A stretch of 61,279 bases of DNA, taken from positions 1-61,279 of IMG/VR virus record IMGVR_UViG_3300006925_000018; one strand, given 5' to 3'. Positions 7,245 through 27,148 of this stretch are shown piece by piece. Origin of the DNA: a virus. The notes beneath the pieces were generated by a model, which made no database searches, was not told the DNA's origin, and saw only the letters and a list, made by a program, of their open reading frames with translations. Each line of letters starts with the position of its first letter. The first letter of the stretch is position 1. The position numbers and the translations under genes are program-made.

Positions 7245-7532
7245 ATGCGTAAAACAAGAAGCATTTTAGAAGAATTAAATTCTATATCTGTTGACAGGTC
7301 AAAAGACTATGTTGTAGAGAATCGTGGCGAGCATGTTATTAATAGTGCAATTAACCTTATAGAGCAAATTGAAACCAATTATGATGACAAGATTGCTAAG
7401 GATTTAACTAATAGACTTATTAATAGTATTCGTAGTAAGGATACTAAAAAGTTTTCCCGTGGTATTAAAAAAGTTATAAAAGAATCTCAAGGGAAACATA
7501 ATGAAAATTTCGGAAGTAGTTCAACAGAATAA
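7245..7532 (+). CDS. small hypothetical protein, 95 aa, first gene of the internal-protein block
   Basis: An all-helical-looking, charged protein (net basic) with no membrane segment. It begins MRKTRSILEELNSIS, which contains LEE-like hydrophobic-x-E sites resembling the targeting peptides of the following genes. It overlaps the next gene by 32 bases. The late promoter at 7210 and a clear AAAGGAATGAC ribosome site support expression. Function unknown; a small capsid or core component is a reasonable guess. Confidence 0.65.
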   Translation: MRKTRSILEELNSISVDRSKDYVVENRGEHVINSAINLIEQIETNYDDKIAKDLTNRLINSIRSKDTKKFSRGIKKVIKESQGKHNENFGSSSTE

Positions 7533-8334
7533 GATTGTTGCTGAAGCAGAGCCTAGAGAGCCAGGTTGGCTCGAAAGAGCAGGTGATGTATACCGAACCA
7601 TTGCAGGCGGTCAGTTCTTTGACAAAGTAAAAGCCACCCTTGGTGCAAACTTTGGTAATGAAAAAGCCAGATTAGAATACAACAACATAGTAATGAGCGG
7701 CGCATTAGTGCAAAGTTTTCTAGCAATTACTTCTGCAGGTGGTAATAAAAATCCAAATTCAGAAGACCTAGCACAGTTTTTAATTGATGCAGATATCAAT
7801 CCAGATGCTATACAGATGGCATTTCAAAAAGTTACTCCAGGCAAAGCACCAGACCCTGAACCTGAATCTTCTGCTAATTCAATGGACCCTAATATAGACT
7901 ACGATAAACCTGCATATCAAAGAAAAGCAGAAAAAGACAAAGAACAAGGGCAACAACCCGCTCCAGAGAGACCTAAGCAAAATCCTAGTTTTGACGGAGG
8001 AATTTTAGATGCAAACGGCAGGCTAATGCAACCTGAATCTGTAATTTACGAAGAAAACAAAGTTTTAAATAAAAAAGAAATATTAGGAATTGTTAAACAA
8101 GCAGTAACTAATGCTAGTGCTAAAGGAAGATTTAATAGCATAAGTATTCCTGCAAGTGCTAGAAATCCAGAACTTACAGCGAAACAGTTAGTACAGGCAG
8201 TCGCTAATGGCCAAAAACAAGATGCTACAGGTACTACAGGCCCAGGCGATGCTGAAGTTTATCAAGCAGTAAAAAATATAAAATCTATGAGTCCAGAACA
8301 AAGGGCTCAATTAACAAAAGAACTACAGGCTTAA
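7501..8334 (+). CDS. putative internal virion protein with capsid-targeting-like N-terminus
   Basis: A 277 aa protein. Residues 1-16 (MKISEVVQQNKIVAEA) fit the pattern M-K-hydrophobic-x-E followed by VAE|A, similar to the T4 internal-protein targeting peptide and its gp21 cut site. A helical domain (about 20-115), a Pro-, Glu- and Gln-rich linker (about 118-165) and a C-terminal helical domain follow. No enzymatic motif was seen. A second possible cleavage-like stretch is SVIYEENKVL, near residue 180. It lies first in a run of seven overlapping or closely spaced genes with similar N-termini. Confidence 0.6.
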   Translation: MKISEVVQQNKIVAEAEPREPGWLERAGDVYRTIAGGQFFDKVKATLGANFGNEKARLEYNNIVMSGALVQSFLAITSAGGNKNPNSEDLAQFLIDADINPDAIQMAFQKVTPGKAPDPEPESSANSMDPNIDYDKPAYQRKAEKDKEQGQQPAPERPKQNPSFDGGILDANGRLMQPESVIYEENKVLNKKEILGIVKQAVTNASAKGRFNSISIPASARNPELTAKQLVQAVANGQKQDATGTTGPGDAEVYQAVKNIKSMSPEQRAQLTKELQA

Positions 8335-8339
8335 ACACT

Positions 8340-9215
8340 ATGCGTTTAATGGAAGTCACTCAACAAAGGATTGACACTATCAATGAAAGTGGTAGTATGT
8401 CTGGCGTTGGTGCTATACATATCTCTGAAATAGAGCCTACATTAGATTATTTAGAAAAATCTTTGGGCATGGACTTAAAAAATAACGTACTAGGTTCCGT
8501 AGGTAAAAAAGAATTTTCAGGAGATATAGATGTTGCAATTGATGTCGAGCCTGAAGCAATGCCTGAACTATTAGACAAATTAAAAATAAATCCAGATATC
8601 ATAGACATTGCTAAAAGTAGTGTGATTATGACAAAGGTTAAAATTGCCAAGTTTGATGCAAACAAAACATGTGATAGAGCAAGGACAGGATATGTGCAAC
8701 TAGACTTTATGCCAGGGAATCCGGGTTGGATGAAAACATATTATCATTCTCCTGCAGACGGTGAAAGTCAATACAAGGGTGTGTTTAGAAACATTTTGTT
8801 AGCAGTCATATGTGCATTATATGATAGAAAAGATTCTGCAGAACAAACAGAAGATGGCAGAAGTTTACAATCAGAGCAATACTTATTTTCACCCACAAAA
8901 GGTTTAGTCAGAGTTAGAAGAAATCCTGTGCCTAAAAAGAACGGCGAAGGTTACACTAAACAAAATAACAATGTTATTATAGACGGTCCTTGGTTAACAC
9001 CAGATGAAATAGTAAAGGTATTAGGACTTGATAAGAAAGAAGATTTAAACAGTTACGAAAGTTTAAAAAGTGCAATAGAACAAAACTATCCAGCAGAACT
9101 CACAGCAAAGATACTAGACAGTTTTGCTAACAACAAGCAAGTACAAGACATCGGTGTTCCATCAGATTTACAAATACAAGAAGATGTATTAATGTACATG
9201 AGGAAACTGTCGTGA
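8340..9215 (+). CDS. pol-beta-type nucleotidyltransferase, putative virion cargo
   Basis: Carries the minimal nucleotidyltransferase signature: LGSVGKKEFSGDIDVAID (G52-S53, then D62-x-D64) and a third carboxylate in YVQLDFMPG near residue 122. The superfamily adds nucleotides to nucleic acids, proteins or small molecules using two metal ions. The N-terminus MRLMEVTQQRIDTINESG contains INE|S, an (I/L)xE site like those cut by T4 gp21, so the enzyme may be packaged and trimmed. It overlaps the ligase-like gene by four bases, suggesting joint action on a nucleic acid. Substrate unknown. Confidence 0.7.
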   Translation: MRLMEVTQQRIDTINESGSMSGVGAIHISEIEPTLDYLEKSLGMDLKNNVLGSVGKKEFSGDIDVAIDVEPEAMPELLDKLKINPDIIDIAKSSVIMTKVKIAKFDANKTCDRARTGYVQLDFMPGNPGWMKTYYHSPADGESQYKGVFRNILLAVICALYDRKDSAEQTEDGRSLQSEQYLFSPTKGLVRVRRNPVPKKNGEGYTKQNNNVIIDGPWLTPDEIVKVLGLDKKEDLNSYESLKSAIEQNYPAELTAKILDSFANNKQVQDIGVPSDLQIQEDVLMYMRKLS

Positions 9216-10342
9216 GATTTAGAGAAATAAAAACACTCATGGAAGCCGCAAGGATACAACATGCGGAAGATGTGATCTTTTGGGAAGGCTCTAAGGGTGC
9301 TATGCGAGTGGTTAATAGTCTCAAAAGTTTGGAGAAGAACGGTCACAAGGACGTGACAATTAAATGGGACGGCATGCCTGCAGTTATATTTGGAAGAACG
9401 CCAGATGGACAATTTGTGTTCACAGACAAAAGTGGATGGAGTGCAAAAGGCTATAACGGTAAAACAACTTCAGCAGAAGAAGTTAAGAATATGTTTTTAT
9501 CACGTAGCGGCGGTGCAAAAAGAGAAGACCCTGCACAAATAGAATTTGCTAATACTATGGCAGACTTATTTAATCAGTTTGAATTAATTGTTCCTGATGA
9601 TTACTCAGGATTTTTTAAGGGAGACTTGTTGTACAGTCAAACACCACCAGTTGTAAATAACAATTTTGTGTTTGAGCCTAATATTGTTGAATACGCAGTA
9701 GATGTGCAATCAGAATTAGGACAAAAAATTAGACAAAGTAATGCAGGTATAGTTATACATAGAATGATAGATGAACAAGGTAATGAAACACCTTTACAGG
9801 ACTATGATATATTTACAGGTAACAATGTATTAGTTGTTCCGCCTATTAGTGTTGAGAGTCCTGCACAAAAGATTAGTCCCGCACTTAACAAATTAGAAGA
9901 ACTTGTAACAAAAAATGCTACATTAATAGATGAGCTATTGAATCCAACAGAACTTTCGATGCTTAAAATGACAGACTTTCCACAGATACTGTATAGGTAT
10001 ATAAACTCTAAAGTAGATACAGGACTTGATGGGTTAGGCATAGACTTTATAGATTGGCTACAAACATCTAATGTAAGCGGTGTTAAGCAACAACGTATTT
10101 CAGATTATATACAAAAGCATGGCAGAGCGTATGCGGCAATGTGGAAAACAGTTTCATCGATTATGCAAGTAAAAGACAAAATTATATCTCAGTTTGAGAA
10201 CCAAGGTGGCGATATACAACAACGTATTACAGGGCACACCACAAACAGTGGCGAAGGATATGTATTAGCACATCCTGAAGGTGATATTAAGTTAGTGCCG
10301 AGAGCAACATTTAGTGCGGCAAACAGGGCGGTATCCAGATAA
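9212..10342 (+). CDS. nucleic-acid-ligase-like protein (KxDG adenylyltransferase fold), putative virion cargo
   Basis: TIKWDGMPAVIFG carries the KxDG motif I of covalent nucleotidyltransferases (K51-W-D-G54). FFKGDLLY resembles motif III, and EGYVLAHPEGDIKLVP near the C-terminus matches motifs IV and V. The fold is that of DNA and RNA ligases and capping enzymes, in a divergent 376 aa protein. The N-terminus MRFREIKTLMEAAR contains LME|A, a very good gp21-like site. It is directly coupled to the nucleotidyltransferase upstream. I infer a repair or end-processing pair carried in the capsid; the substrate (RNA or DNA) is not evident. Confidence 0.68.
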   Translation: MRFREIKTLMEAARIQHAEDVIFWEGSKGAMRVVNSLKSLEKNGHKDVTIKWDGMPAVIFGRTPDGQFVFTDKSGWSAKGYNGKTTSAEEVKNMFLSRSGGAKREDPAQIEFANTMADLFNQFELIVPDDYSGFFKGDLLYSQTPPVVNNNFVFEPNIVEYAVDVQSELGQKIRQSNAGIVIHRMIDEQGNETPLQDYDIFTGNNVLVVPPISVESPAQKISPALNKLEELVTKNATLIDELLNPTELSMLKMTDFPQILYRYINSKVDTGLDGLGIDFIDWLQTSNVSGVKQQRISDYIQKHGRAYAAMWKTVSSIMQVKDKIISQFENQGGDIQQRITGHTTNSGEGYVLAHPEGDIKLVPRATFSAANRAVSR

Positions 10343-11166
10343 TGGAGTTAACACTAGTAAATCAAGAGTTAGCAGAAGCAAGACTGTTTAGATATTCTAG
10401 AAGTTTTGGTGCTTTTACAGGAAGACAAGTCGCTGACTTAATGTTTCTAAATACATTAGTATTACAATTATTGTTTTTAGACGATAAAACAGTTAAGAAA
10501 GCAATGAGTTATGCAAAACTAACAGCATCTTATGGTTCATTTTCTTTATTTAGAACAGCGGCAACAGACTTATATTTGTTGGCTTATGCTTTAAATTATC
10601 CAGATAATAGAAACATGAAATTTTCAAAGCACGTTGAAAGTTTATCATTTCTAAAAACACTACAGTTTGATCACAAGATGTTTTTAAGGTATATGCGTAT
10701 GGTTGCTCAAGCACATAATGATAAGCAATATGCAACTACATATTTTTACAGATTAGAAACACAACTTAAAATACGTGATTCTCGTTACAAAAGGTGGCGA
10801 AGATTGATAAGTACATATAGTACTTTAAAATTTGCACAAAAGAATGCCTTGATTGCTCAAATATTATTTGAAATCAAAAGGCAAGGTGGCGGAGCAGGTA
10901 GAGGTTCAGAGCTTGTTCCTGCATTAGAACCATTCCTCAAAAAGAGAGGTTATAGTAATTCTGATAGTCAGTTACAAAAGCAAGTTGATAAAGCAAACAG
11001 CACATCTTTTGCTAAAAGAGCCGCAGGTACTGTAGCAGGTGCTATAGCAGGTAAATATGCAGTAGATAAATTTGCAAAAGCAAAACCATCTACACAAAAG
11101 AAGATAGGCACAGGTATAGGAGCAATAGCAGGTTACTGGGCTAGTGGAAGGAAGAAACAAAAATGA
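10342..11166 (+). CDS. putative internal virion protein with C-terminal glycine-zipper segment
   Basis: The N-terminus MELTLVNQELAEARLF contains LAE|A, matching the (L/I)xE|A processing pattern. The body (about 20-190) is helical and strongly basic, rich in Tyr, Arg and Lys. Residues about 225-268 form a glycine-zipper-like stretch (AAGTVAGAIAGKYAV and GIGAIAGYWASG), a pattern found in membrane-inserting or self-associating helices. One possibility is a protein ejected with the DNA that inserts into a host membrane; this is speculation. It shares its ATG with the end of the upstream gene. Confidence 0.6.
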   Translation: MELTLVNQELAEARLFRYSRSFGAFTGRQVADLMFLNTLVLQLLFLDDKTVKKAMSYAKLTASYGSFSLFRTAATDLYLLAYALNYPDNRNMKFSKHVESLSFLKTLQFDHKMFLRYMRMVAQAHNDKQYATTYFYRLETQLKIRDSRYKRWRRLISTYSTLKFAQKNALIAQILFEIKRQGGGAGRGSELVPALEPFLKKRGYSNSDSQLQKQVDKANSTSFAKRAAGTVAGAIAGKYAVDKFAKAKPSTQKKIGTGIGAIAGYWASGRKKQK

Positions 11167-11705
11167 AAATATTTGAAATAATAAACGAGTTAGACGGAAA
11201 GGATGTTGATCTTAAACCAGATACTGGACGTAATTTTTCAAGTGGTGGACAAAGTTCAGAGATAAACCAAAACGACCTAAGAGATATGAAAATTGCATAT
11301 AGAAAAAATCCACAGTTTGTGGCATTAGTTATGCAAGGACTAGCACAACCTCATATTAAAACAGTTGCTCAAGCAGTACAATGGGCACAGAACGAAGTAG
11401 TAGCAGGCAATGACGCTAAACCATCCGATACTAAATTACCAACATCAGGACCTGCTAAACAAAATCCTCGATGGTGGGACGATGCTCAACTTAGTGTTAG
11501 CAAGTCTAAAAATAAAGATTTTGGCAAGAATTATAGTTCAAGCGGCAGTAAACGAGGTAAACTTAGCGATCTTATTCCAGGCATGGATAAGGTAAAAGAC
11601 AAAATTGCTGATTTAAAAAATTATACAAAAAATAAAACAGGTTTTGACATAGACGATGCTGATAGCAGTTCTAGTAGAGCCGCTGATTACTTAAAAGGCA
11701 AATAA
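11163..11705 (+). CDS. putative internal virion protein, 180 aa
   Basis: Begins MKIFEIINELDGKD, with INE as the likely processing site. The rest is low-complexity and charged: a helical segment (about 40-85) with YRKNPQFVALVMQ, then Ser-, Lys- and Asp-rich linkers. No catalytic motif is seen. It overlaps the upstream gene by four bases and is the last gene before an 8-bp hairpin and a late-promoter-like site at 11738. Confidence 0.58.
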   Translation: MKIFEIINELDGKDVDLKPDTGRNFSSGGQSSEINQNDLRDMKIAYRKNPQFVALVMQGLAQPHIKTVAQAVQWAQNEVVAGNDAKPSDTKLPTSGPAKQNPRWWDDAQLSVSKSKNKDFGKNYSSSGSKRGKLSDLIPGMDKVKDKIADLKNYTKNKTGFDIDDADSSSSRAADYLKGK

Positions 11706-11716
11706 GCCACTACATA

Positions 11717-11737: not shown

Positions 11738-11745
11738 GATAAGTA
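11738..11745 (+). promoter_or_regulatory. late-promoter-like box with one mismatch, leaderless spacing
   Basis: GATAAGTA differs by one base from GATAAATA and lies exactly five bases from ATG 11751, the spacing seen at the perfect sites. The conserved spacing supports it despite the mismatch. Confidence 0.5.
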
Positions 11746-13300: not shown

Positions 13301-13549
13301 ATGGCTAGGAAAAAAGTAGAAACTAAAGAAATACCACAACCGGAACAATATATCCAGGAAGGCGGTGTAGAAGCACATATTATTGCAGATATGCTGAGGA
13401 TAGAAAGTATCACTACAGAACTCAGAGAGTTTAAAGAAGATACAAAATCAAGGTTTGATAAATTAGAAGGCTGGATTGTTGCAATAGTAGGTATTACAAT
13501 TACTACATTATTAGCCACTGTAGGAACATTAATAGGAAGTATGTTATGA
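13301..13549 (+). CDS. small coiled-coil protein with one C-terminal membrane helix, XhlA/holin-like
   Basis: An 82 aa protein with an acidic coiled coil at about residues 28-56 (MLRIESITTELREFKEDTK). A single hydrophobic helix follows (about 59-82, GWIVAIVGITITTLLATVGT). This is the architecture of XhlA-type holin partners and of several phage inner-membrane spanins. No charged tail follows the helix. It sits in late structural and internal genes, not beside the endolysin at 58707. The assignment rests on architecture alone. It overlaps the next gene by four bases. Confidence 0.5.
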   Translation: MARKKVETKEIPQPEQYIQEGGVEAHIIADMLRIESITTELREFKEDTKSRFDKLEGWIVAIVGITITTLLATVGTLIGSML

Positions 13550-14025
13550 AAATAGTAGAAGTTGCAGGTCCAGATAAATGCTGGCCCGGACATAAGAAAG
13601 TTGGCACTCAGCCAGGAACAGGAAAGAACAAAGGCAAACGTGTAAACAAGTGTAAAAAAATTGAATCTGTCAAGGAAGAAGAGATTACTTTAGAGGATAC
13701 ACAAGACTTCCACGAGGAATTTGGTGTTCTAGGATATAGCGAGTGCGACGAAGACGTATTTGAAGCAGAGTATCAAGGACGTAAAGTTAAACTAAACAAG
13801 CCTATGCAAGGTGACGTTAAAAAGTTTAAAGTATATGTCAAAGATCCAAAGACAGGTAATGTTAAAAAAGTAAACTTTGGACACGGCGGTACAAGTGCTA
13901 AGGGTAAGTCAATGCGTATTAGGAAATCTAATCCTAAAGCAAGAAAAAGTTTTAGAGCAAGACATAATTGTGCTAATCCAGGACCAAAAACAAAAGCACG
14001 TTACTGGTCATGCAGGAAATGGTAG
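13546..14025 (+). CDS. basic cysteine-containing internal protein, putative virion DNA-binding cargo
   Basis: Begins MKIVEVAGPDKCWPGHKKV. A Lys/Gly-rich segment contains paired cysteines (KNKGKRVNKCKK), then an acidic stretch with FEAEYQGRKVKLNKPMQG. The C-terminal half is very basic and ends in KARKSFRARHNCANPGPK and a terminal YWSCRKW. The C-terminal block recurs in many marine T4-like phage proteins in my memory, but I cannot search it. The Cys/His arrangement could bind zinc. Strong positive charge and the shared N-terminus suggest a packaged DNA-binding protein. Confidence 0.6.
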   Translation: MKIVEVAGPDKCWPGHKKVGTQPGTGKNKGKRVNKCKKIESVKEEEITLEDTQDFHEEFGVLGYSECDEDVFEAEYQGRKVKLNKPMQGDVKKFKVYVKDPKTGNVKKVNFGHGGTSAKGKSMRIRKSNPKARKSFRARHNCANPGPKTKARYWSCRKW

Positions 14026-14370
14026 ATGAGAATCAACGAAGTCGACGATACAGAAATATTTGAAGCCAGACTTGTTTGGCGTAAAATGGGTAAAACAGTA
14101 AAACGTGCTGTTCGATGTACTAGTGGTAGACGTAAAGGTAGAGTTGTATCTAAGCCTAGCCAATGTGGTGCACCAATAGACTTCAAAAAACGATTAACAC
14201 TTAAAAAAACAAAAGCAAAATTTGGTGCCAGGATAGCTCGTAAGGCGAGAAGATCTAAAAAATACAATCCTATAAGTAGGAGGGTAGCATCACTTAATAA
14301 ATCAGTTAGGTTCAAGCCTACAAGAAAAACTAAATCAACATCAAACAGATTCCCAAATAGGAAAAAGTAA
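14026..14370 (+). CDS. histone-like, extremely basic internal protein, 114 aa
   Basis: Begins MRINEVDDTEIFEARLVWRK, with IFE|A as a strong prohead-protease-type site. If cleaved there, the mature protein is about 100 residues and about one third Lys and Arg, with two cysteines (VRCTSGRRKGR and SQCGAPIDF). This is the composition of a DNA-condensing protein, as in T4 internal proteins. It is packed end to end with its neighbours (no gap on either side). The basic core is not a recognised HU or H-NS fold. Confidence 0.62.
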   Translation: MRINEVDDTEIFEARLVWRKMGKTVKRAVRCTSGRRKGRVVSKPSQCGAPIDFKKRLTLKKTKAKFGARIARKARRSKKYNPISRRVASLNKSVRFKPTRKTKSTSNRFPNRKK

Positions 14371-17300: not shown

Positions 17301-20300
17301 ATTTACTGTTTACGTTAAAGAAAAACTGATAGAGATTTTTAAAGATATTAAAAGTAATGAAATGTCAAATCCAAATTCTGGAAGTGTTTTAAATCGTTTG
17401 GGAGATCGTATGACAGATGGTATACGAGATGCACTTGGCAGGTATTATAAAGATATCGAAGGCGGAGATCCTGATAATTTAAAAATTATTGGCCAAACTG
17501 GTGATGTTAAAACAGCAGTAAAGCAAAAATTTAAGGCTTTAAAAGATTGGATGCAAGGATTTGATAAAATTGCACAAGAAGTTGGATTTGAAAGCCAAGC
17601 AGATGAGATTGCAGGCAAAAATAATATTCCTGGCAGAGAAGATGACTTTGCGAGAAGTGTACAGGAAAGACCACCTATAACATTAAATATACCTGCACAT
17701 TCTCAGGCATACATGTGGACAGATCTGTACAGAGATTTAACTAATCCAGACTTTACTAAACAGGTTAGAAAATCAAAACAACTAAGAGCTAGATCACAGT
17801 TTACAACTAAGTTGAACAGCGGAAAAGTTTTTGTAATTCCATCGGCACATTTCAGCCAGGCTCTAGATGCATATGAAATACAAAAGTATGAAGAGAATCA
17901 TCGACCATGGAGAGTTAAAGCCGCTCAAAAGGTAATGAAAGAGTTTTATAAAACATACGGAAAAGCATTTAAAGATCTCGTTGATAACCCTGCTGACTAT
18001 GTTAGTATAAACGGACTGAAGGCTGAATTAAAGAAGGAAGGCATAGCAATATCAACTGAAGGTGATTCTAGAGAACCTAATGTAGAACCATTAGTACCTC
18101 ATTCAGAGACGTCACAACCAGGAGTAGGAACGCCTCTGTCTACAACAGCCGCCGCGGCTTGGCATGTAAACAACCCAGAGTTATCTAAAAAAGCAGACGC
18201 ATTAGATAAAAACGCAGACCAACATCGAAATAATACAATATCAACGCCACCAGAAAAAGAGGTTAATTCAGATTATGATAAAGCCAGAGCAGAACATCCA
18301 GGCTTCGATAGAATGATGCAACGTGGTATGCAGAATTACTTAGCACGTGGCGAAGTAAATTACCTAGTAGGATTTTTAAACGATCCATTGAAAGATAATG
18401 TTTTCAAATCGCATGTTTTAAATACTATAGCAAATCGAGGTGATATGGAAAACGGTCCTTTTGCTACTTTCCAAGATGCATTAGCAGTTACTCGTAGACA
18501 AGGTCATGAAAGTGTATTTACTAAATTTAATAAACTGTCATTGCAGGAACAAATAGCAAAGTTAGAAAACGTAGATGCAAATAGAATTAGTCAATTACAT
18601 GGTAAATTTGTTGAAGGAAATTTAAACAGAACTGAACTATCCAAAGACCAATCCAGATTTGATGCTTTTGTTAACAAAATTAATGCAGGAATACCATTTC
18701 AAATGACTGATAAAGCCGGCGGCGGCGAAATTGTATTACACCCAGATATGATTAAGGGTGTAACAGTTGCAAGTGATTTACCTGATCCTATAGACATAGA
18801 TGGCAATAACGTTGCTTGGAACAAATTAGAAAAAACAGCAGAATTTGGTTCTAGGACAGGCGGAGAAAAAGTCTCTAACAAAGGTGAAGTAGCAGAAGGT
18901 ATATTAGGATGTGCCACATTTGCTAGATTGCTTAAACGACCTATTGCTCCTATCACAGACGGTGATATAAAATCAGTTATGAAAAGATTGCCAACAGACG
19001 CACCAGATAAAGGTGGTTGGCATGAGTTAACACTTACTGCTAGAGAAACAGATAATCCTATAGCAGACTTCTTTACACTCACACTTAATCTTAAATCAGA
19101 TACTTATAAAGATTTTATAAACCCTGAGAAATGGTCTCTGATGAATAATATCAGTAACAATGTTGTAGGATATGTAAATGACAACATGGACAAGTACACA
19201 AAACTTTTTGCTAAAAACGGCAAAGTTGATGCTGTAAAAGTAATTGCTGATGGTGTAAGCGGAGAAACAGATACCAAAGTAGATGTATTTTTAACTCACA
19301 GTTTAGACGGCGGCCCAGAAAGAACACTACAACATTATGATATGAGTGTTAAAGTAGGTAGTACAAAACAAATGGGACAAGTAGGCGGCGGAAAAACAGC
19401 ACAAGGTGTATCAACGGAACGTTTCTTTATATTGAAAGAAATGTTTGAAAAATTTGGTGCAGATTTATCTGTAATTGAAAACCAGTTTATGTCTTCAGCA
19501 ACAATAAATGATGCTTATGTTATTGCATACAGTGAAGCGGCAAAACAAATAAACACTCATCTAACAACTGAAGATAAAGAAGTAGATTGGCTTATGCAAT
19601 TCTTGAATACTATTAAGTTCTTTGCCACTCTCAATGACGATAGAGTTAAGTTAGTGCAGTTTGAAGATACTTTAAAAGGTGGCTACTATGTGCTAGACTT
19701 TAAAAAGTTAGACAGAATGATGGATAAAGACAAAGTTGATCTAGAAGCGGTATTTATAGATGATAAAGCTCAGCCAAAAATTACTATTATTAACACAGTA
19801 AATAACAAACCGTTTTTATCTATAAGAAAAAAACAAGCACAAAATGACGGCTACATTAGAAACTACATTGAAAAAGAAAAAGGCTTAGTAGAGTTAATCA
19901 AAGTAAGAGGCTCGGGTATGCGTAAGAAAGTTGAAAGTGTCCAAGAAAGAGCTAGTTACGGTGTTTCTCTTGCAAACAAGGAAAAAATCCCTGCAATGAT
20001 TAAATTAGTAGGTAAACTATTTCGCAAAAAACTTCCAACAGTAGAAGTGCAAAACAAATTAAGACAAGAGTTTAATATTCAAGCCTTCGAAGCAAGGCAT
20101 GTTATTAGCATGTGGAAAGAATTGAATAGTGTTAAGGAAGGTGCAGTACCTAACAACGATACAATCAGAAAGTTAAAAGAAATTTTTGCAAAACCTTTAA
20201 TGTCTGATGATATTAAATCACAAATGGATGCGTATATATGTATTCCAGATCCTGCAATGATTAGAGACTTTAGAGCCGCTAGAGCTCAATACGGCGACAA

Positions 20301-20379
20301 TTTTGACATGAGAAGTATTGTTAGAGGTTATGCAAAAGTAAAATTACACAAAACATTACAAAAGCAATTAAGTAAATGA
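14371..20379 (+). CDS. 2002-residue putative internal virion protein with amidoligase-like and possible nuclease domains
   Basis: The largest gene here. The N-terminus MKFNDVQTLESLLKKLNEYG fits the shared targeting pattern (LNE|Y), followed by a Ser/Thr linker. From about residue 187, RCGFEAETSWDG, then AVETDSSIDSSGQGAEIISP (about 416-435), TGLHVTMSWYG (about 466) and NLIEFRIGGG (about 580) follow the order of the amidoligase / glutamate-cysteine-ligase-like fold, which makes amide bonds with ATP. Residues 190-380 are very acidic. Near residue 1634, TDTKVDVFL followed by DMSVKVGSTKQMG looks like a PD-(D/E)xK nuclease core (D...xVK). The C-terminus is helical. Four-base ATGA overlap with the next small gene. 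The domain calls were made by eye; the gene itself is certain. Confidence 0.7.
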   Translation: MKFNDVQTLESLLKKLNEYGNTSGSPSYSAGGTSSTKSSPTTSQSSTSVTKQSTSPTANGTKPPEPKLVKVTAKDLDDGSEFKDNKGNVQGKVVSKVGMLPKPDRVVVQTTDNEYHLYDPKMEVMVDEHIGHDILDKMTIKKSHKKNSLKRRIKKLTRKRLGEAPLCEINFNRKEIVTDALDSPVRCGFEAETSWDGISGSSGEDVNDMGWDEVSDSVYVSSSDNDYIMEGFSEYVRENLVPDYYDDVMARYMENERDEDSSYTRFMEEGSDAPTIDAVEEYRDNFKHEDPNEYENREEDGWEKINWIREYIDEEYEDQYLDFIREYLDDDGEVYQEAYEEAERETSIDEWIGNEFYSMSNFLDDYGIDYSELNGEGGLHEIADLLSEWQKQNSKFSQYPEVGDYDNTSGDAENWAVETDSSIDSSGQGAEIISPVYETPREMLEELKSFCEWLEEKGADTNSSTGLHVTMSWYGENPKFTQDEDDEFWGSKGGPNKLKMASLLGDTYLLQTFGRENNSYTKQQSKNIKRKANDARKFSGKGTEGFSDIERELAKGIDGGKFNSINFKGQIDSKTKTNLIEFRIGGGDDYHLDMPKIVKAVIRYATVMKAGYTDAFNKDYANAIHRIVHGAGKISRADMNIGSDVNEPLLDLFKSMISKDNYFNGVTAITNAYLSLYQVGINEEEPEPDTNASQQEAQKQYVKGMGLLALDVGLDRHRTNINAKSIGVIRRSFKEFDISEDQFTDLIFSRINQYPIPTQNDRIDQKASVLKKGIDSLFKKDMLSMPKFLNIPKAERIVKGTWNAIHSDGWSKEDQEELIDKLINLTTPDVADETKRNNIKYSIINMIEDEEFNSFYSNMTRGGYNSSNPPAQPGEIYYENEFKDLMKFLNKYNNYSQPVAPHFNSNISSSDTYLENYLNSYTMKLRKRFLHLEEIKDDNFQLYVESVKKIGELSRTLLNAWGDHEQIEFDGVHNRLVFTVYVKEKLIEIFKDIKSNEMSNPNSGSVLNRLGDRMTDGIRDALGRYYKDIEGGDPDNLKIIGQTGDVKTAVKQKFKALKDWMQGFDKIAQEVGFESQADEIAGKNNIPGREDDFARSVQERPPITLNIPAHSQAYMWTDLYRDLTNPDFTKQVRKSKQLRARSQFTTKLNSGKVFVIPSAHFSQALDAYEIQKYEENHRPWRVKAAQKVMKEFYKTYGKAFKDLVDNPADYVSINGLKAELKKEGIAISTEGDSREPNVEPLVPHSETSQPGVGTPLSTTAAAAWHVNNPELSKKADALDKNADQHRNNTISTPPEKEVNSDYDKARAEHPGFDRMMQRGMQNYLARGEVNYLVGFLNDPLKDNVFKSHVLNTIANRGDMENGPFATFQDALAVTRRQGHESVFTKFNKLSLQEQIAKLENVDANRISQLHGKFVEGNLNRTELSKDQSRFDAFVNKINAGIPFQMTDKAGGGEIVLHPDMIKGVTVASDLPDPIDIDGNNVAWNKLEKTAEFGSRTGGEKVSNKGEVAEGILGCATFARLLKRPIAPITDGDIKSVMKRLPTDAPDKGGWHELTLTARETDNPIADFFTLTLNLKSDTYKDFINPEKWSLMNNISNNVVGYVNDNMDKYTKLFAKNGKVDAVKVIADGVSGETDTKVDVFLTHSLDGGPERTLQHYDMSVKVGSTKQMGQVGGGKTAQGVSTERFFILKEMFEKFGADLSVIENQFMSSATINDAYVIAYSEAAKQINTHLTTEDKEVDWLMQFLNTIKFFATLNDDRVKLVQFEDTLKGGYYVLDFKKLDRMMDKDKVDLEAVFIDDKAQPKITIINTVNNKPFLSIRKKQAQNDGYIRNYIEKEKGLVELIKVRGSGMRKKVESVQERASYGVSLANKEKIPAMIKLVGKLFRKKLPTVEVQNKLRQEFNIQAFEARHVISMWKELNSVKEGAVPNNDTIRKLKEIFAKPLMSDDIKSQMDAYICIPDPAMIRDFRAARAQYGDNFDMRSIVRGYAKVKLHKTLQKQLSK

Positions 20380-20489
20380 ACGAAGAAATAAAAGTAAGAG
20401 AACCGCAACTGCCTGTAGAAGGCGAATACACACTTTGTAATAGAGGTGAAGTTGCTGTATATAGAAATGGGAAATGGGTAAGACCGTGA
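20376..20489 (+). CDS. small protein, 37 aa, translationally coupled
   Basis: ATG 20376 overlaps the stop of the giant gene (ATGA), and its own TGA (20487-20489) overlaps a GTG that is the likely start of the next gene (GTGA). The product, MNEEIKVREPQLPVEGEY and then LCNRGEVAVYRNGKWVRP, reads like a small beta hairpin with Gly, Tyr and Trp. The chained overlaps suggest that it is translated; it may mainly couple translation of its two large neighbours. Function unknown. Confidence 0.6.
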   Translation: MNEEIKVREPQLPVEGEYTLCNRGEVAVYRNGKWVRP

Positions 20490-23338
20490 AGCAATCAATA
20501 TTTGAAGCAATGGTAAGTACATTACCACACAATGTTCAAGGAACACCTGTTCCTAGAGCCGAGATGCCTCAATTAAAAGTGCCAGACTTAGAAAATTATA
20601 ATACTGTACGAATAGATTTTCCAATAGATAGAATTAAACCAGTACAAACAGAAAGAGTGCCAGGACTAGCAAGAAAGGTTGCTCGAGATTTTGATGGTAA
20701 AGACAAACCGTTTATATTAGACAAAGACTACAAACTTGTTAACGGGCATCACAGATATGATGCCGCTAGATTGCTAGGTAAAGAAGTTGTAGATGTAGTT
20801 ATAATCAGAGATAAAACCTTAGATCAACTAATGGGACTGCATAAAGATACAACAAGCAACACACCAACTATTCAAACTGAAGACGACATGTCTGACTTTC
20901 ACCGCAAACTAAAAATCGCACTAGAGAAAAGAAACCTTTTCGCTGACGGCGGAGGCGGCGGTGGCGGTGGAGGCGGTGGCGGCGGAGCCGGTGGCGGTGC
21001 AGGAGCCGGTGGTGGTACTGGAGCAGGAGCAGGAGCAAGTGCCGGAGCAGGAGCAAGTGCCGGAGGAGACTCAGGAGGCGACAGCGGTTCATCAGGTAGC
21101 AGTGATTCAGGACCAAGTACAGACAGTGGTGATAGTTCGCCAGCACCTGCAAGAGGTTATATGTACTTTGGTTCAATGCCAGCATACAGTAAAAGCAAAA
21201 AGAAGAAAAAGAAAAAGAAAAAAACTAGTACTAAATTTGGCAAAGGTGCATCGGTTTATGAAGCACAAGAAAATACTATATATGCAAAATGTGAATTAGA
21301 ACATATTGTAGATGGTGTCGATAAAGGAAACTTTTTATTCAAGCAAGAACCTGGTAAGCCTGTACTAGTTGTAGGAACAGTTACAGGACTAACACCAGGT
21401 AAGCATGGTTTTCATATACATGAATTTGGAGACCTAAGCAATGGCTGTGAAAGTGCAGGCGGACATTATAATCCAGACGGTGTAGATCACGGAGACTTAG
21501 ATAGCGGACATGCAGGTGACTTAGGTAACATAGTTGCTGATGAAAACGGTATTGCAAAAATAGGAATAGTTTTAAAACGTGTAGACTTACACGGAGATAG
21601 AAACATTGTAGGCAGAGCAATAGTTGTTCATGCTGATGAAGATGATTTAGGCAAGGGCGGAGATGAGGAAAGTGCAAAAACAGGTAATGCAGGTGATAGA
21701 TTAGGTTGTGGTGTTATTAGATTAGCAACATTAAATGAAACCATAGAAGCCGCACAAGATATGAAAGCATTAATGAAAGGCATAGATTCAGACTTAGCAC
21801 AACGTAAAAAAGACCTCAAAAAGAAAATTAAGGCAAGTGTATACGAAGCACCAATAATTAGACCACAAGATTCATATGATCCAAACGCCAACGATGCATA
21901 TAATTCTGCAACAAATAGACAACCTCCTAAATATGATTATGATCCTGAGGTAGATTATAGACCAGGTAAAAGTTTAGGTAAAATTCCTAACATACAATCT
22001 GAAACAGAAGTAGTACAGATGCCTAATAGAGATTTGTATTTGTTTTATTCTAATACTATGCCTAAATCTACTACACCTGAACAAAAGACAATGTGGCAAA
22101 AATTTGTAACAGCAATGTTACACAATCCAAAAGCAAATCAAACTGGTCCTACCAAAGAAAAAAATGTAATAGGTTTTTTAAAATTAAAACCTTTTGAAGA
22201 TGGTTATAGAGTTGCTGGTGTTGGAATGGATCCTGAAATACGAGGACAAGGCAAAGCAATTAAATTATACATGGCTTTTAGTGCCTGGAAAAGTGTTCCT
22301 ATATATTCTGACTTTACACAAACGCCTAGTGCTAAAACAATGTGGAATAGTATAATAGGCCGTTATCCTAAAAGAGTTGTTGCATATGATCAACAAAGTA
22401 AACAAGATATACCGTTATCTAAAGCAGGTGAGATGTATCAAGACGCACCACCTGACTATAAAAAATTAACTCAATTCGACGTAGCGAAAGCTCATAGTGG
22501 CACTAAACTGTTTAAATTATTACCAGAAGGTGTAACAAAGGGCAACTTTGGTGGACTTATATATCCTCGACTACCACATGAAGAAGTGGTAGATGCCATT
22601 AGTGAGTGGGAGTACGGTAACACACCTATTGAACTTAGTAATGGATATGTTATAAATGCCAGAGAAGAAGGCTATAACGAAGACGACAATGCTTGGGTAT
22701 TATTAGACCCACAGGGTAAAATAATTGATGATGGTGAAGGTTCTATTGAAGATGTAATGCAGGACTTTACACCAATAGCAATAGAAGAAAACTTTGCTGA
22801 CGGTAAAAAGAAAGGCAAAAGTCGTCCAGGTAGAGTAAAACGTTCAGGAGCAAGTTGCAATGGCTCAGTAACTGATCTGCGTAAACGTGCAAAAAATAGC
22901 AGTGGTGAGAAAGCAAAAATGTATCACTGGTGTGCTAACATGAAGTCTGGTAAAAAGAAAACTAAAGAAAGTTACTATAGTAGAATGGCAGTTGATAAGA
23001 TAGAAATGAGACCAAAAGACTTTAATGACAAGTACGGTACAGCAGACGCCTATACTGGCATAGCTCAGCCTCAACAGAAACTAAAACCATCTAAGTGGGA
23101 AGTTGGTAACCCAACAGGACCTCATAGCGAAAATGTTTTTATAAACATTCGCACTAATCAAGTATCAGGAGCCACTGCAATAAAACAAATAACTGCTCAA
23201 TACACACATGACCAAATGGTTAAACCTCTAGAGCAGGGCGGTTTAGGTGCAAGGCAGACAAAGAATACAAGTGATAACAAATACTATATGCCTTATGTGT
23301 TATTTGATAAACATGTAAAGTCCGGAAAGATAAAATAG
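20486..23338 (+). CDS. multidomain putative virion polyprotein: ParB-like, Cu/Zn superoxide dismutase, GNAT, basic tail
   Basis: I chose GTG 20486 (four-base GTGA overlap) because it gives MKQSIFEAM, with IFE|A; ATG 20474 adds four residues. Domains in order: ParB-like (about 40-115, with KPFILDKDYKLVNGHHRYDA); a run of 13 glycines and a Ser/Gly linker; a run of nine lysines (about 237-245); ASVYE|A (255-260); a complete Cu/Zn SOD with HGFHIH (H310, H312), GCESAGGHYNPDG, VVHADEDD and the second cysteine in LGCGVI; ASVYE|A again (450-455); a GNAT-like domain with GVGMDPEIRGQGKA (about 576-591); and a basic segment near 772 (GKKKGKSRPGRVKR). SOD disproportionates superoxide. The duplicated site suggests that the SOD (about 195 aa) is cut free. 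Confidence 0.78.
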   Translation: MKQSIFEAMVSTLPHNVQGTPVPRAEMPQLKVPDLENYNTVRIDFPIDRIKPVQTERVPGLARKVARDFDGKDKPFILDKDYKLVNGHHRYDAARLLGKEVVDVVIIRDKTLDQLMGLHKDTTSNTPTIQTEDDMSDFHRKLKIALEKRNLFADGGGGGGGGGGGGGAGGGAGAGGGTGAGAGASAGAGASAGGDSGGDSGSSGSSDSGPSTDSGDSSPAPARGYMYFGSMPAYSKSKKKKKKKKKTSTKFGKGASVYEAQENTIYAKCELEHIVDGVDKGNFLFKQEPGKPVLVVGTVTGLTPGKHGFHIHEFGDLSNGCESAGGHYNPDGVDHGDLDSGHAGDLGNIVADENGIAKIGIVLKRVDLHGDRNIVGRAIVVHADEDDLGKGGDEESAKTGNAGDRLGCGVIRLATLNETIEAAQDMKALMKGIDSDLAQRKKDLKKKIKASVYEAPIIRPQDSYDPNANDAYNSATNRQPPKYDYDPEVDYRPGKSLGKIPNIQSETEVVQMPNRDLYLFYSNTMPKSTTPEQKTMWQKFVTAMLHNPKANQTGPTKEKNVIGFLKLKPFEDGYRVAGVGMDPEIRGQGKAIKLYMAFSAWKSVPIYSDFTQTPSAKTMWNSIIGRYPKRVVAYDQQSKQDIPLSKAGEMYQDAPPDYKKLTQFDVAKAHSGTKLFKLLPEGVTKGNFGGLIYPRLPHEEVVDAISEWEYGNTPIELSNGYVINAREEGYNEDDNAWVLLDPQGKIIDDGEGSIEDVMQDFTPIAIEENFADGKKKGKSRPGRVKRSGASCNGSVTDLRKRAKNSSGEKAKMYHWCANMKSGKKKTKESYYSRMAVDKIEMRPKDFNDKYGTADAYTGIAQPQQKLKPSKWEVGNPTGPHSENVFINIRTNQVSGATAIKQITAQYTHDQMVKPLEQGGLGARQTKNTSDNKYYMPYVLFDKHVKSGKIK

Positions 23339-23345
23339 ATAAATA
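23338..23345 (+). promoter_or_regulatory. T4-type late promoter, leaderless arrangement
   Basis: GATAAATA shares its G with the upstream stop codon and is followed by five bases and ATG 23351. Confidence 0.75.
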
Positions 23346-23350
23346 CAATT

Positions 23351-23677
23351 ATGCTTATAAACGACATTATAACAGAAACAACTTCCGGTGGTATTGCCAT
23401 TGTTGCTTCACCAATGGGCAAAATGCAAAAGAGACCTAACCCAAGTGTTTTTGCAAAAAGCAAAAAGAGAGTTTCAGAAGATACAGACCCAAAAGCAGAT
23501 CCAGAAATTGTTGCCAAGTTTGCTAGGGTAAGTGATAAAGACAGATCTTACTATATTATGAAGTGGGCTGAAGAAAAAGGAATTAATAGCGACGATGCTA
23601 TGTGCCTAGCAGGTTATGTAAGAGATGGATATATAGGCGCAGGTGCTTGGAACTGGGCATATCGACCAAAAGGTTAA
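23351..23677 (+). CDS. small putative internal virion protein, 108 aa
   Basis: Begins MLINDIITETTSGGIAIVAS, with ITE|T as a possible processing site. A basic region (GKMQKRPNPSVFAKSKKR) follows, then a helical C-terminal domain (KDRSYYIMKWAEEKGINSD) ending in aromatic-rich AGAWNWAYRPKG. No known enzyme motif. It is preceded by a perfect late box at the five-base spacing, so its message is probably leaderless. Confidence 0.6.
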   Translation: MLINDIITETTSGGIAIVASPMGKMQKRPNPSVFAKSKKRVSEDTDPKADPEIVAKFARVSDKDRSYYIMKWAEEKGINSDDAMCLAGYVRDGYIGAGAWNWAYRPKG

Positions 23678-23679
23678 TT

Positions 23680-23904: not shown

Positions 23905-24325
23905 CAAAAGACAGAAGCAAGATCTAGCAGTTAAGTTAGATAAACTTGCTCAAAATGTGTCTAAACGTGGTGCCTATGTGGTTACTAGGAATGCTACTAA
24001 CGATTTCTTCGTTATAGTAGAGGCTTTAAATAAAAAGGTGGTATTGACACATATACTTCAAAAAAACACAGCACAAGGGCTTTGTGTACGTCTAAACAGC
24101 CGAAATAAGCCCAACTCACCTTATGAACCAGTGACAGATATGCAACTAACTAGAACACAAAAGTTGTTAAATAGATATGCTGATCTATTCACCGAATCAA
24201 TATTTCACAAATACACAATCAAAACAACAAAAAAGAATTTTACAAGAGACGTGGCATTTATAAGATTACACGAAACAGTTCTCAAACTCAAAGGCATTGC
24301 AGAAGAGCTAAGACACCAGTTATAA
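23867..24325 (+). CDS. hypothetical basic protein, 152 aa (TTG start)
   Basis: TTG 23867 is preceded by AAGGAAGG (about 23854-23861), a strong ribosome site that decides the start. The product begins MATKSTHKKQKYNKRQKQDL and has a central beta region (AYVVTRNATNDFFVIVEALNKKVV) and a helical C-terminus. It is highly basic. In marine T4-like phages small proteins of this type are common and uncharacterised. No recognised domain. Confidence 0.62.
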   Translation: MATKSTHKKQKYNKRQKQDLAVKLDKLAQNVSKRGAYVVTRNATNDFFVIVEALNKKVVLTHILQKNTAQGLCVRLNSRNKPNSPYEPVTDMQLTRTQKLLNRYADLFTESIFHKYTIKTTKKNFTRDVAFIRLHETVLKLKGIAEELRHQL

Positions 24326-24350
24326 AACTTTTAATAAATTTTGCAATTAT

Positions 24351-24358
24351 GATAAATA
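24351..24358 (+). promoter_or_regulatory. T4-type late promoter with leader
   Basis: GATAAATA lies 34 bases before ATG 24393, and TAGGAAA in the leader is a moderate ribosome site. Confidence 0.7.
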
Positions 24359-24392
24359 AGTGTAATAACTAACTTATAACTAGGAAATCACT

Positions 24393-25682
24393 ATGTTTTT
24401 GAATGAATTTAATCAAACATCAATTAGTAAGGTAGCATCGCTTAACAAAATGCTGTCTGAAGAATTTGGTATAAAAATCAATCCAGGAACAGTCAATCTC
24501 ACAAAGTTAATGAAGATTAACGAGCAGGCCAAAGCGGCTTTGTATAAAATTAGAGGTAGTAAGAAGAAATTTCAATTAGAGCCAGAGTATGCAAAATACT
24601 TAGGTTTAAAAGATATTTCAGAGACGATGATTGTTGAAGGGTACTACGAATCCAGCCCAGGCTACCAAGCACTAGAGGCTAAAATCTATGAAAGAGTAAT
24701 GGAACTTTGTAATTCAGGGTACACGGCAGAAGAAGCCAGAAGCCAATGTATGAACGAAGTTAGACAAGACCCGTCTCATTGTTATGAAGATGCATGTACA
24801 GAGACTATGGTTATGTCTGCAATTGGCAAATTCGAAGAGTCATGTGGTAGTAAGCATGAATCAATTGAAGAAGAGTTAGGCCTTCCAGAAACTGATATGA
24901 GTCCAAGACTAGTAAGAGAACTTGCTACTGAAATTGGAATAGATCTTGCAACAATGGAAGATTACAATGCTATCGAAGAAAAACTTAAAACTTTTGCTGA
25001 AGTTAGTGGCAAAAGCAGAGACTCAGTTGTTGGTTTCCTAAACGGTCTCGAAGAAGATTCAGTAGTTAGTGGTATCCAAATGTTTGGCAGAAAGATTGAA
25101 GAGCAAAATAAATTTACTGGTGCTAGAAAAGATGCTATTGCACAAGGCAAAGATTCTTTTGAAGTAGATGGTAAAACATATAAAGTAACTGGTGATACTT
25201 CCGATGAAGAGGAAGCAGTAGAGGAAAGTACAATGTTTGATTCAATTATAGATGAAATGCTTAACGAAGAAGTTGGCGAAAAAGAAGCAGAAGTTGTTAT
25301 GGCTGTTAGAGCATTAGCAGATGATATTCAAGACCAAGTAGAAAGAATTGGTAGAATGGTTAATGTAGATATTCCAGCAATAGCAGATTCTATTAGAACT
25401 GAAATGGGAGCCGATACAGCATTATCATTCTCAGATGGTTCATCACAATTACTTACAGCACACTTAGAAGCAGTTAAGGCTGTTAAGTCTGCATTTGATC
25501 AACAAATTAGCGGATTAACAGGCGGCGAAATGGTTGGCGGTCTTGGTGATACGGCAGATTTAGGTGCCGAACTAAACAGCGATCCTTCAATGGATAGTTT
25601 AGGAATGGAAGAGCCAGTAGCAGACAACGTTCCAGCAATGGCAGGCCCAGAAGAAGAGCCACTCGGAAGAGCAGAGGTTTAA
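24393..25682 (+). CDS. acidic putative prohead core or internal protein, 429 aa
   Basis: Begins MFLNEFNQTSISKVASLNKM, then LSE|E near residue 23. The N-terminal 80 residues are mixed and include the well-formed stretch QAKAALYKIRGSKKKFQL. The centre is acidic and helical with several Cys (about 105-150), and the C-terminal 120 residues are Gly-, Asp- and Glu-rich and probably disordered. Acidic helical composition and late expression fit a scaffold or core protein that is degraded or trimmed during maturation. A virion role is probable; the specific function is not assigned. Confidence 0.6.
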   Translation: MFLNEFNQTSISKVASLNKMLSEEFGIKINPGTVNLTKLMKINEQAKAALYKIRGSKKKFQLEPEYAKYLGLKDISETMIVEGYYESSPGYQALEAKIYERVMELCNSGYTAEEARSQCMNEVRQDPSHCYEDACTETMVMSAIGKFEESCGSKHESIEEELGLPETDMSPRLVRELATEIGIDLATMEDYNAIEEKLKTFAEVSGKSRDSVVGFLNGLEEDSVVSGIQMFGRKIEEQNKFTGARKDAIAQGKDSFEVDGKTYKVTGDTSDEEEAVEESTMFDSIIDEMLNEEVGEKEAEVVMAVRALADDIQDQVERIGRMVNVDIPAIADSIRTEMGADTALSFSDGSSQLLTAHLEAVKAVKSAFDQQISGLTGGEMVGGLGDTADLGAELNSDPSMDSLGMEEPVADNVPAMAGPEEEPLGRAEV

Positions 25683-25685
25683 TTA

Positions 25686-26033
25686 ATGCTCATTTCAGAA
25701 GTAGTCAGTTCTGGAATGGCAGGTCCAGAAGATGAATTGGTAGTTGCCATTGAGGACCTACTAAGTAGATATATGGCTGATGGTAATGACGAGGCTGATA
25801 TCCCTACAGATGAATTCAAAAGTAATTTAGAGGCTGATATTAATAGGCCAATCGACATGGGCACTTTAATTAGTGTATTAGGGCAAAGCGGTTTTGCTAG
25901 TAGTGTAGATAAAACAACTATTAGAGCAAAAGGCGACCTAAGTAAGGATATAGACACAGACCCAGAAAAAACAGTTGATGTTGGTAAAATGGCTGGTGAT
26001 CAAGCCATGAAAGATATTAAGGCAGATCTATAA
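25686..26033 (+). CDS. small acidic protein, 115 aa, internal-protein block
   Basis: Begins MLISEVVSSGMAGPEDELVV, matching the shared M-x-I-x-E-V opening but without a clear (I/L)xE cut site. It is acidic with DELVVAIEDLLSRYMADGND, a helical pair that resembles the C-terminal repeats of the upstream protein (MAGPE occurs in both: MAGPEEEPLG at the upstream C-terminus and MAGPEDELVV here). It lies three bases after the upstream stop. Its stop shares a base with the next ATG. Confidence 0.55.
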   Translation: MLISEVVSSGMAGPEDELVVAIEDLLSRYMADGNDEADIPTDEFKSNLEADINRPIDMGTLISVLGQSGFASSVDKTTIRAKGDLSKDIDTDPEKTVDVGKMAGDQAMKDIKADL

Positions 26034-26353
26034 TGGCAAGTATATTTTCTAATGCGGCAACGGCCCGTAAAGATACTAGGAACAATTCAGTTATTCATGC
26101 TGAAGTGCGTAGCATTGAAACTGCTGTACTAGGCAACATTGATGCCGGAGTATTATACGCAAACGTATCTACAGGCACAACAATGACAGATAGTAATGCG
26201 TATTACAAAGCATACTATGGTGTTACTACAGATGTAACTAAAAAAGATCAAGTAGACTATGTCTGTAAGTATTTTAAAGACTTAGGATATGGTGTCAAAA
26301 TAGCACAAAACTTAACAACCACAGATACAATTACCTGGAATATTAGTTGGTAA
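26033..26353 (+). CDS. small virion structural-type protein, 106 aa
   Basis: A beta/alpha protein beginning MASIFSNAATARKDTRNNSV, with many Thr, Asn and Tyr (TGTTMTDSNAYYKAYYGVTT) and no Cys except one late residue. The composition fits a structural protein (tail or neck) rather than an enzyme. The one-base overlap with the upstream stop implies coupling. No family recognised. Confidence 0.58.
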   Translation: MASIFSNAATARKDTRNNSVIHAEVRSIETAVLGNIDAGVLYANVSTGTTMTDSNAYYKAYYGVTTDVTKKDQVDYVCKYFKDLGYGVKIAQNLTTTDTITWNISW

Positions 26354-26364
26354 TATAACATACA

Positions 26365-26372
26365 CATAAATA
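26365..26372 (+). promoter_or_regulatory. T4-type late promoter, leaderless arrangement
   Basis: CATAAATA is followed by five bases and ATG 26378. The in-frame ATG at 26372 overlaps the box itself and could not be inside the transcript, so this promoter decides the start. Confidence 0.7.
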
Positions 26373-26377
26373 TGTGT

Positions 26378-27148
26378 ATGGAACGTATTGATATATGGTT
26401 TGGCGACAGTTGGGCTATAGGTAATGAATTACCAAGCAAACTAAACTCAGCAGAAATTAGAACACTAAAAAAAACTGGTTTTCCTAACCTCAGAGATAAT
26501 ACTCAAAATCCACAAGAATCATACCCAGCACTTGTCTCTAAGCAACGAGGCACAACATATCAAAATTATGCGATTGCAGGTGGAAGTTACGAATTTGCAT
26601 ACTTTCAAATGTGTAATTGGCTAGCAAATGGTAACTTCACTGATGACAATGAATATACTTTTTGGTTACAAACTACTGCGGCAACAAGAGATTTTGGCAT
26701 AGACTATAATTTTAAAAGACATCATTTTCAAGGAATAAAAAAGTTTTCTAGAGGTAAACTTTTAAATTTTCAACAAGCAAAGAGCCTACCAGAGTTTGCT
26801 GATTTTGATGCTAATATGACGTTAAATGCTATATGGACTCTTTGTAAATCAAATTATATCAAACTTAAGATTGTTCCATTGTGGATAGGCATGAATTTAG
26901 TACCGGAAGTAAATATTGTTCCACAAGGAAAATGGATAGCAGATCCTAATACTAATATGTTACAAAATATATTTGGCAAGAATGTTTTTCCCGATGGTGG
27001 TATAGACACATCTGATATAGATAACGAACATATTATAAAACAAATCCAGCAGTACGACTATATCTCACCTAACGATTGCCATCCAAATAAACAAGGACAC
27101 AAACGTATTGCGGACTATATAATTAGTATATTAAACAAAAGAAAATAA
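26378..27148 (+). CDS. SGNH/GDSL-type hydrolase
   Basis: A 256 aa protein starting MERIDIWFGDSWAIGNEL, where block I GDS places the nucleophile Ser at residue 11. NYAIAGGSYE supplies the block II Gly, and CHPNKQGHKRIADYI near the C-terminus is the block V D-x-H dyad. The family hydrolyses esters, including acetyl groups on polysaccharides. ATG 26378 was preferred to 26372 because of the late promoter. No signal peptide is present, so it acts in the cytoplasm or in the particle. Followed four bases later by the exonuclease gene. Confidence 0.78.
   Translation: MERIDIWFGDSWAIGNELPSKLNSAEIRTLKKTGFPNLRDNTQNPQESYPALVSKQRGTTYQNYAIAGGSYEFAYFQMCNWLANGNFTDDNEYTFWLQTTAATRDFGIDYNFKRHHFQGIKKFSRGKLLNFQQAKSLPEFADFDANMTLNAIWTLCKSNYIKLKIVPLWIGMNLVPEVNIVPQGKWIADPNTNMLQNIFGKNVFPDGGIDTSDIDNEHIIKQIQQYDYISPNDCHPNKQGHKRIADYIISILNKRK

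Follow-up and report, generated by a model that had tools for sequence, protein, structure and literature searches.

Short N-terminal tags resembling the T4 capsid-targeting sequence on some fourteen proteins of a marine T4-like phage

About fourteen proteins of a marine, T4-like phage, all encoded on one 61,279-base IMG/VR fragment (analysed as a whole and referred to here as the window), open with a short N-terminal peptide, or tag, of a similar kind. These tags are probably prohead-targeting propeptides that act like the capsid-targeting sequence of T4 and are cut, the bodies behind them being packaged and injected. A sequence-only reading of the window had suggested a peptide-tagged payload packed with the DNA, and for this phage the suggestion is supported by inference from the sequence and from relatives: by a head protease in a syntenic contig (G025), by the N-termini of core genes, by the ranking of window genes with a profile, and by homologs detected by mass spectrometry (MS) in Pseudomonas phage PA5oct. 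Several of the tagged proteins look enzyme-like or DNA-binding, with activities that are predicted. The helicase, primase, ribonucleotide reductase and structural genes of the window find their matches in T4-related jumbo phages; PA5oct is the nearest named relative as judged by the helicase (50% identity), and the related Sinorhizobium phage Phosso and Agrobacterium phage Atu_ph07 carry part of the tag block.

It is envisaged, from T4 and from N-termini shared with core proteins, that the tag would bind the assembling prohead core and carry its protein inside. A gp21-type S77 protease would then cut after the hydrophobic-x-E with which most tags end, both the site and the protease having been seen. 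The body would remain in the head, as homologs found in virions suggest, and, if T4 is a guide, would be delivered to the host with the DNA.

Distribution of the tags

The strict form of the tag was defined as M-[KRLFENQ]-[ILFVM]-x-[ED]-[IVFLM]. Twelve genes of the window carry it, all within the narrower range M-[KRLF]-[ILF]-x-[ED]-[IVFL], and two (10342 and 20486) have a looser version, the whole set falling into two blocks at 7.5-26.0 kb on the plus strand and 50.9-54.1 kb on the minus strand. Within these blocks 12 of 25 genes have strict tags, compared to 0 of 47 elsewhere in the window (Fisher p=3.4e-7), and shuffling of residues 2-20 gave an expectation of 0.39. A further strict match (14001-14315, minus strand) was excluded as a spurious antisense frame. 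The base rate of the pattern in other phage sequence is 2-3% (14/597, 6/209 and 11/321 genes). Neither the pattern nor the post-portal profile described below fits random start regions equally well. All nine N-termini that had been listed with their sites in the sequence-only reading are present where they were placed, and 13546, 24393, 25686, 50874-53063 (minus strand) and 53301-54134 (minus strand) join these nine.

Out-of-sample checks matter here because the pattern was chosen after the window had been seen, and such tests were therefore run in relatives. Among 390 gene families of relatives without a member in the window, 11 were tagged, compared to 1.5 expected and a maximum of 7 in 2000 shuffles. 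In G025, an 89-kb contig that is syntenic with the window over the tag block and holds orthologs of most of its block genes, 9 of 22 block genes were tagged and 0 of 79 other called genes (p=2e-7, alternative starts being allowed). The bodies had been described as differing completely, and this mostly stands: by clustering they fall for the greater part into separate families, with a short N-terminal extension common to otherwise unrelated proteins. A first-pass clustering joined the 8340 and DUF6267 families, probably via fused proteins, and stricter clustering split them. Codon usage differs between the tags of separate genes, which are therefore not recent DNA copies of one another.

These figures bear on the proposition that the tags have no role in targeting and reflect either an ordinary bias of start regions or a single N-terminal module inherited from a common ancestor. 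The pattern was indeed defined after the fact, and starts of the type M-K/R-I/L are frequent in AT-rich phages. Such an origin is nevertheless extremely improbable given the absence of tags outside the blocks, the low base rates elsewhere, the mostly separate families and differing codons, and the occurrence of the same bodies with differently spelled tags in other lineages.

Cut-like sites and module borders

In most of the window tags the terminal hydrophobic-x-E stands directly before the conserved body. Among 87 tags, which are not independent of one another, [ILVMF]xE occurs at residues 6-20 in 78%, compared to 24% of control genes, and the same motif followed by A, S, G or N occurs in 46%, compared to 7%. 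When 13 DUF6267 proteins are aligned the body opens at an invariant ARIxHAEDxIFWEG and the E lies nearly always 1-3 residues upstream (a slash marks the predicted cut hereafter), with the stretch from tag to E being variable in both sequence and length. An AlphaFold2 model of the DUF6267 protein has a predicted local distance difference test score (pLDDT) below 50 in residues 1-12 only, the remainder being well ordered. In the 10342 family an hxE/[AS]R site abuts the body in most orthologs. The leader of the 8340 family has the length of a complete tag in G025, L003 and the window and is reduced to a few residues (MILNE/GGN) in several orthologs; the L029 and PA5oct proteins begin just downstream of the cut predicted in the window.

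Similar sites recur where genes are fused or carry inserts. In relatives L024, L026 and L028 the DUF6267 gene and the one following it form a single fusion, inside which the tag of the second is retained (MKATEFIPE/D, MRAKEFVKE/T and MKAKEFVKE/A respectively), and in L016 and L018 the counterpart of the fused tag heads a gene of its own (MKANDFIKE/ and MKATDFIKE/). The DUF6267 orthologs of L013, L029 and L030 have a small HPxxGKLVG module inserted between the tag region and an extra E/ site before the body. The HPxxGKLVG module is also present in the window protein 53301-54134 (minus strand).

Judged by its sequence, the protein at 20486-23338 resembles a precursor of several domains, with additional E/ sites where its modules meet. 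The full frame (20474-23338, plus strand, 954 residues) holds, in order, an N-terminal domain of ParB-like type, linkers of poly-Gly and poly-Lys, a possible internal cut at E259 of FGKGASVYE/A (21260-21262), a Cu/Zn superoxide dismutase (SOD) domain (21323-21718; PF00080, 4.7e-44), a second possible cut at E454 of KASVYE/A (21845-21847), a stretch labelled acetyltransferase-like by eye only, and a NFADGKKKGKSRPGR basic domain preceded by a third possible cut at E768 (22787-22789). The SOD domain aligns over nearly its full length to solved Cu/Zn enzymes. Among relatives, the corresponding precursor has the SOD domain in L086 and L082 and lacks it in L083, L088 and L089, L083 having another domain after a similar poly-Lys linker and VYE. 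All orthologs having the basic domain have an E before NFADG. The loose tag of this protein, MKQSIFE (20486-20506, IFE/A), requires that translation start at the GTG at 20486 and not at the ATG at 20474; the L086 ortholog opens MRISIFE/A. An AlphaFold2 model of the precursor had a pLDDT of 42 and was not used. The poly-Gly/poly-Lys linkers between the modules are unusual and are kept in several relatives.

Head assembly, spelling of the tags and virion proteins

Searches with PF03420 and with gp21 of T4 or PA5oct gave no match in the window or in the first ten relatives, all of which are fragmentary records. The gp21-type protease that had been expected outside the window is present in the syntenic relative: the G025 contig, which has the tag block, also has a portal (Portal_T4, 7e-111), a protease (Peptidase_S77, PF03420, 2.1e-24) and a capsid protein (Gp23, 4e-99). 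A scan with one gp21 of this type gave at least 599 matching stretches, and this group looks common. Behind the G025 portal lies a prohead-core gene that opens MKIMEFYEP (MKIMEFYEPAED) and is alone in showing the pattern beyond the block. At the gp21 loci of viral contigs the post-portal gene starts MKSKELLVE/FYDP, MRLNEFYSPE or MKIVEFYEP, and the gene in the gp22 position MAKKIDEILSE/ or MAVNFKDLLE/. A profile built only from post-portal proteins ranked eight block genes first of the 72 genes of the window (p=4e-5).

In T4 the reference N-termini are MKTYQEFIAE/A for internal protein (IP) IPIII, MKTFKEFTSTTTPVSTITE/A for IPI, MLKEQLIAE/A for gp22 and MAKINELLRE/S for gp24, and gp2, the DNA-end protein (L036, 10062-10886, minus strand), opens MAIFQIINE/S, near MKIFEIINE/ of the window. 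For IPIII, replacing E by D at the cut is reported to permit entry and to prevent removal of the tag. The cleavage rule of gp21 is L/I-x-E, and only the first ten residues of IPIII are required (PMC9026906). The likeness originally drawn to the T4 start MKTYQEFI needs amendment: the window tags are nearer to the N-termini of T4 gp24 and gp2 and to the core protein of their own lineage, and none has the IP letters (MKT[YF]xxF..E), but letters of that type do occur on bodies of L015 and, less closely, of L027. In these two relatives T4-IP-like tags are found on the 8340-type, DUF6267 and a third, nucleotidyltransferase-like body, being MKTFRQYFTLLKE/GG, MISFKEYFILTE/GAR and MKTFKHFLIE/QAT in L015 and MLNFRRYFILLE/GG, MINFKNYFLRE/GAR and MKPFKIFYE/QAN in L027. 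Adjacent unrelated genes of one genome use a common spelling, which is what tags matched to one shared receptor would be predicted to do. A test of tag similarity within genomes gave p=0.007, with kinship uncontrolled, and is accorded little weight. We tentatively entertain, as a possibility on the doubtful side of even, the larger idea that the tags form an address code that is specific to each lineage and co-evolves with the core, and that the protease also cuts multi-domain precursors in the head, so that one gene would yield several injected proteins, including an active Cu/Zn SOD that would protect or reprogramme the host at entry.

The virion annotation of PA5oct derives from electrospray ionisation tandem mass spectrometry (ESI-MS/MS), in which detection in the virion does not distinguish head from tail. 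Its homologs of 8340, 12874, 24393, 26033, 27870 and 3272 were detected, as was the product of the tagged PA5oct gene 157529, which probably corresponds to 25686 (hhalign probability 68%); predicted cuts in PA5oct lie, for example, after MKIKDILVE and MKINDIITE. Overall, 8 of the 11 strictly tagged PA5oct genes were detected, compared to 91 of all 321 (p=0.002). In Atu_ph07 a syntenic block (39,484-50,592; L136:13570-24546) contains about ten tandem genes with a start of the type M[RK]-x-x-QLxE, including MRWHQLIE/, MKWHQLTE/ and MRLFQLLE/, and among nine that were aligned the tag is better conserved than the bodies (21-38% identity). By our own count of annotated genes these are approximately coding sequences (CDS) 53-63 and are placed, by location, within the cluster CDS 31-76; three clusters, this among them, are reported to encode most of the virion proteins, and 29 were detected in this one (PMC6102473). 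Most of the tandem bodies have a YRGM..R..S..E pattern, and the last gene (AUZ94865) adds a zeta-toxin/AAA kinase domain. The R..S..E pattern gave these proteins, by eye, the look of ADP-ribosyltransferases, for which searches of Pfam, PDB and PHROG brought no confirmation.

The same targeting and cutting might serve proteins that mainly build an inner-body-like core and are not injected effectors, an explanation that overlaps with the one preferred here. Several tagged proteins (13546, 14026 and 24393) are indeed basic or acidic with no recognised enzyme domain, but neither the Cu/Zn SOD domain nor the zeta-toxin/AAA kinase domain of Atu_ph07 is structural by nature, and we regard a mainly structural role as rather unlikely.

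The main rival to cleaved tags is that these are uncleaved docking peptides, which would fasten virion proteins by their N-termini to the head, the neck or the tail and in which the E would belong to the docking motif. The virion detections are compatible with either location, T4 gp2 begins in the same manner, and 13546 and 25686 have no good site. To our knowledge there is no report of T4 gp2 being cut. Docking sits poorly with the retention of E just before the body despite the variable length of the stretch leading to it, with the E sites that flank inserts and domains in fused and multi-domain genes, and with the S77 protease in the syntenic G025, and is considered improbable. A number of observations do weigh against targeting with cleavage. 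The head-assembly genes are not in the window fragment; the virion-type genes 7245, 12874 and 26033 lie untagged among or beside the tagged ones; the homologs of 8340 in PA5oct (where it is found in virions) and L029 lack the tag; the L033 DUF6267 protein has D instead of E at the site; a clear hydrophobic-x-E is absent from 13546 and 25686; and the post-portal profile did not separate MS-detected from other proteins across PA5oct (area under the curve 0.50).

Known systems and individual genes

In principle the proposed system is that of T4; what is new is its scale, its lineage-specific spelling, its enzyme content and its modular precursors with sites at their borders, and we regard it as a new variant in which the T4 arrangement is greatly expanded. 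T4 IPI-IPIII and Alt likewise have a short N-terminal extension on unrelated bodies with an end of L/I-x-E type (10-19 residues in the IPs), which gp21 cuts (PMC9026906); the likeness extends to G025, with its S77 protease and its portal and capsid of T4 type, and to the similar openings of relatives' core proteins. T4 differs in having a handful of tagged proteins compared to about fourteen in the window, where the tags are spelled otherwise, some precursors have several domains, and the bodies include SOD and others that look like enzymes. Closest in letters to tags of the window and its relatives such as MLINDIITE/ and MKINDLLNE/ is T4 gp24, but gp24 and gp22 are shell and scaffold proteins and not payload. 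Many head proteins, and ejection proteins as well, of the giant phages PhiKZ and SPN3US are cut after E by a gp21-related protease (PMC10052503, PMC5694885); their propeptides are mostly 111-254 residues with no common short tag, whereas the window tags have about 7-23, and no long multi-cut N-terminal propeptide of the PhiKZ/SPN3US type was found among the latter. In phage P1 the very large DarB protein enters the head by means of an N-terminal capsid-targeting signal, which is enough by itself to bring in a reporter (PMC9024508), but this concerns the first 30 residues of a single protein in a phage apparently without a separate scaffold system. No earlier report of tags of this kind in marine or jumbo phages was found in the open-access literature searched. 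If the proposal is correct, the internal-head system of T4, with its few proteins, becomes a general and readable payload code, the head-packaged proteins of uncultured T4-like phages could be listed from sequence alone, and natural tags and cut sites would be available for packaging foreign proteins. The question of which proteins are co-injected with phage DNA becomes directly testable.

On the plus strand the first tag, MKISEVVQQNKIVAE (7501-7545, VAE/A), belongs to a 277-residue protein (7501-8334) and is followed by MRLMEVTQQRIDTINE (8340-8387, INE/S) on a nucleotidyltransferase-like protein (8340-9215) and by MRFREIKTLME (9212-9244, LME/A, GTG start) on the DUF6267 protein (9212-10342; PF19782). 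The looser MELTLVNQELAE (10342-10377, LAE/A) heads a 274-residue protein (10342-11166), and MKIFEIINE (11163-11189, INE/L) a 180-residue protein (11163-11705) whose orthologs open MKIYEIVE/APE. The start MKIVEV (13546-13563) opens the basic protein 13546-14025, and MRINEVDDTEIFE (14026-14064, IFE/A) a small basic, histone-like protein (14026-14370). The longest tagged protein (14371-20379, 2002 residues, with a weak Amidoligase_2 match) bears MKFNDVQTLESLLKKLNE (14371-14424, LNE/Y) and a possible second cut at E168 of LCE/INFN (14872-14874), on the border of the amidoligase-like domain; this site is conserved as LFE/INFN in L083, L003 and L088. Beyond the SOD precursor are MLINDIITE (23351-23377, ITE/T) on a 108-residue protein (23351-23677) and MFLNEFNQTSISKVASLNKMLSE (24393-24461, its cut position uncertain) on a 429-residue protein (24393-25682), the MS-detected PA5oct ortholog of which opens MFLKDVKITE. 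The start MLISEV (25686-25703) belongs to a 115-residue protein (25686-26033), likely counterparts of which open MKIKDILVE/ in PA5oct (MS-detected) and MRLSEIINE/ in Phosso. The minus strand carries MKFKDIVVLSE (53031-53063) on a 729-residue protein (50874-53063) and MRLGDLKKKEIEYELRGE (54081-54134) on the 277-residue protein 53301-54134. Of the labels first given to the bodies SOD is firm, and 'ligase-like' and 'amidoligase-like' are weak; for the DUF6267 protein Foldseek ranks RNA, tRNA and DNA ligases high, with E values of 0.1 or worse, which together with a KWDG motif only suggests a ligase.

Elsewhere in the window, two adjacent proteins at 47638-50341 (minus strand) share an LxxLAG[LI]-like repeat (LQQLAGI, LKKLAGL, MRQMAGL, LKKLAGL), one of them having a cytidylyltransferase-like domain, and one copy of the repeat continues into LLDE/APVNF. 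By eye, a 519-residue protein at 37015-38574 (minus strand) has the subtilisin-like motifs VDTG, GHGT and GTSLSSG, and a 248-residue protein at 43869-44615 (plus strand), with HxxxxH and HxxHH-like motifs, has the look of a membrane fatty-acid desaturase.

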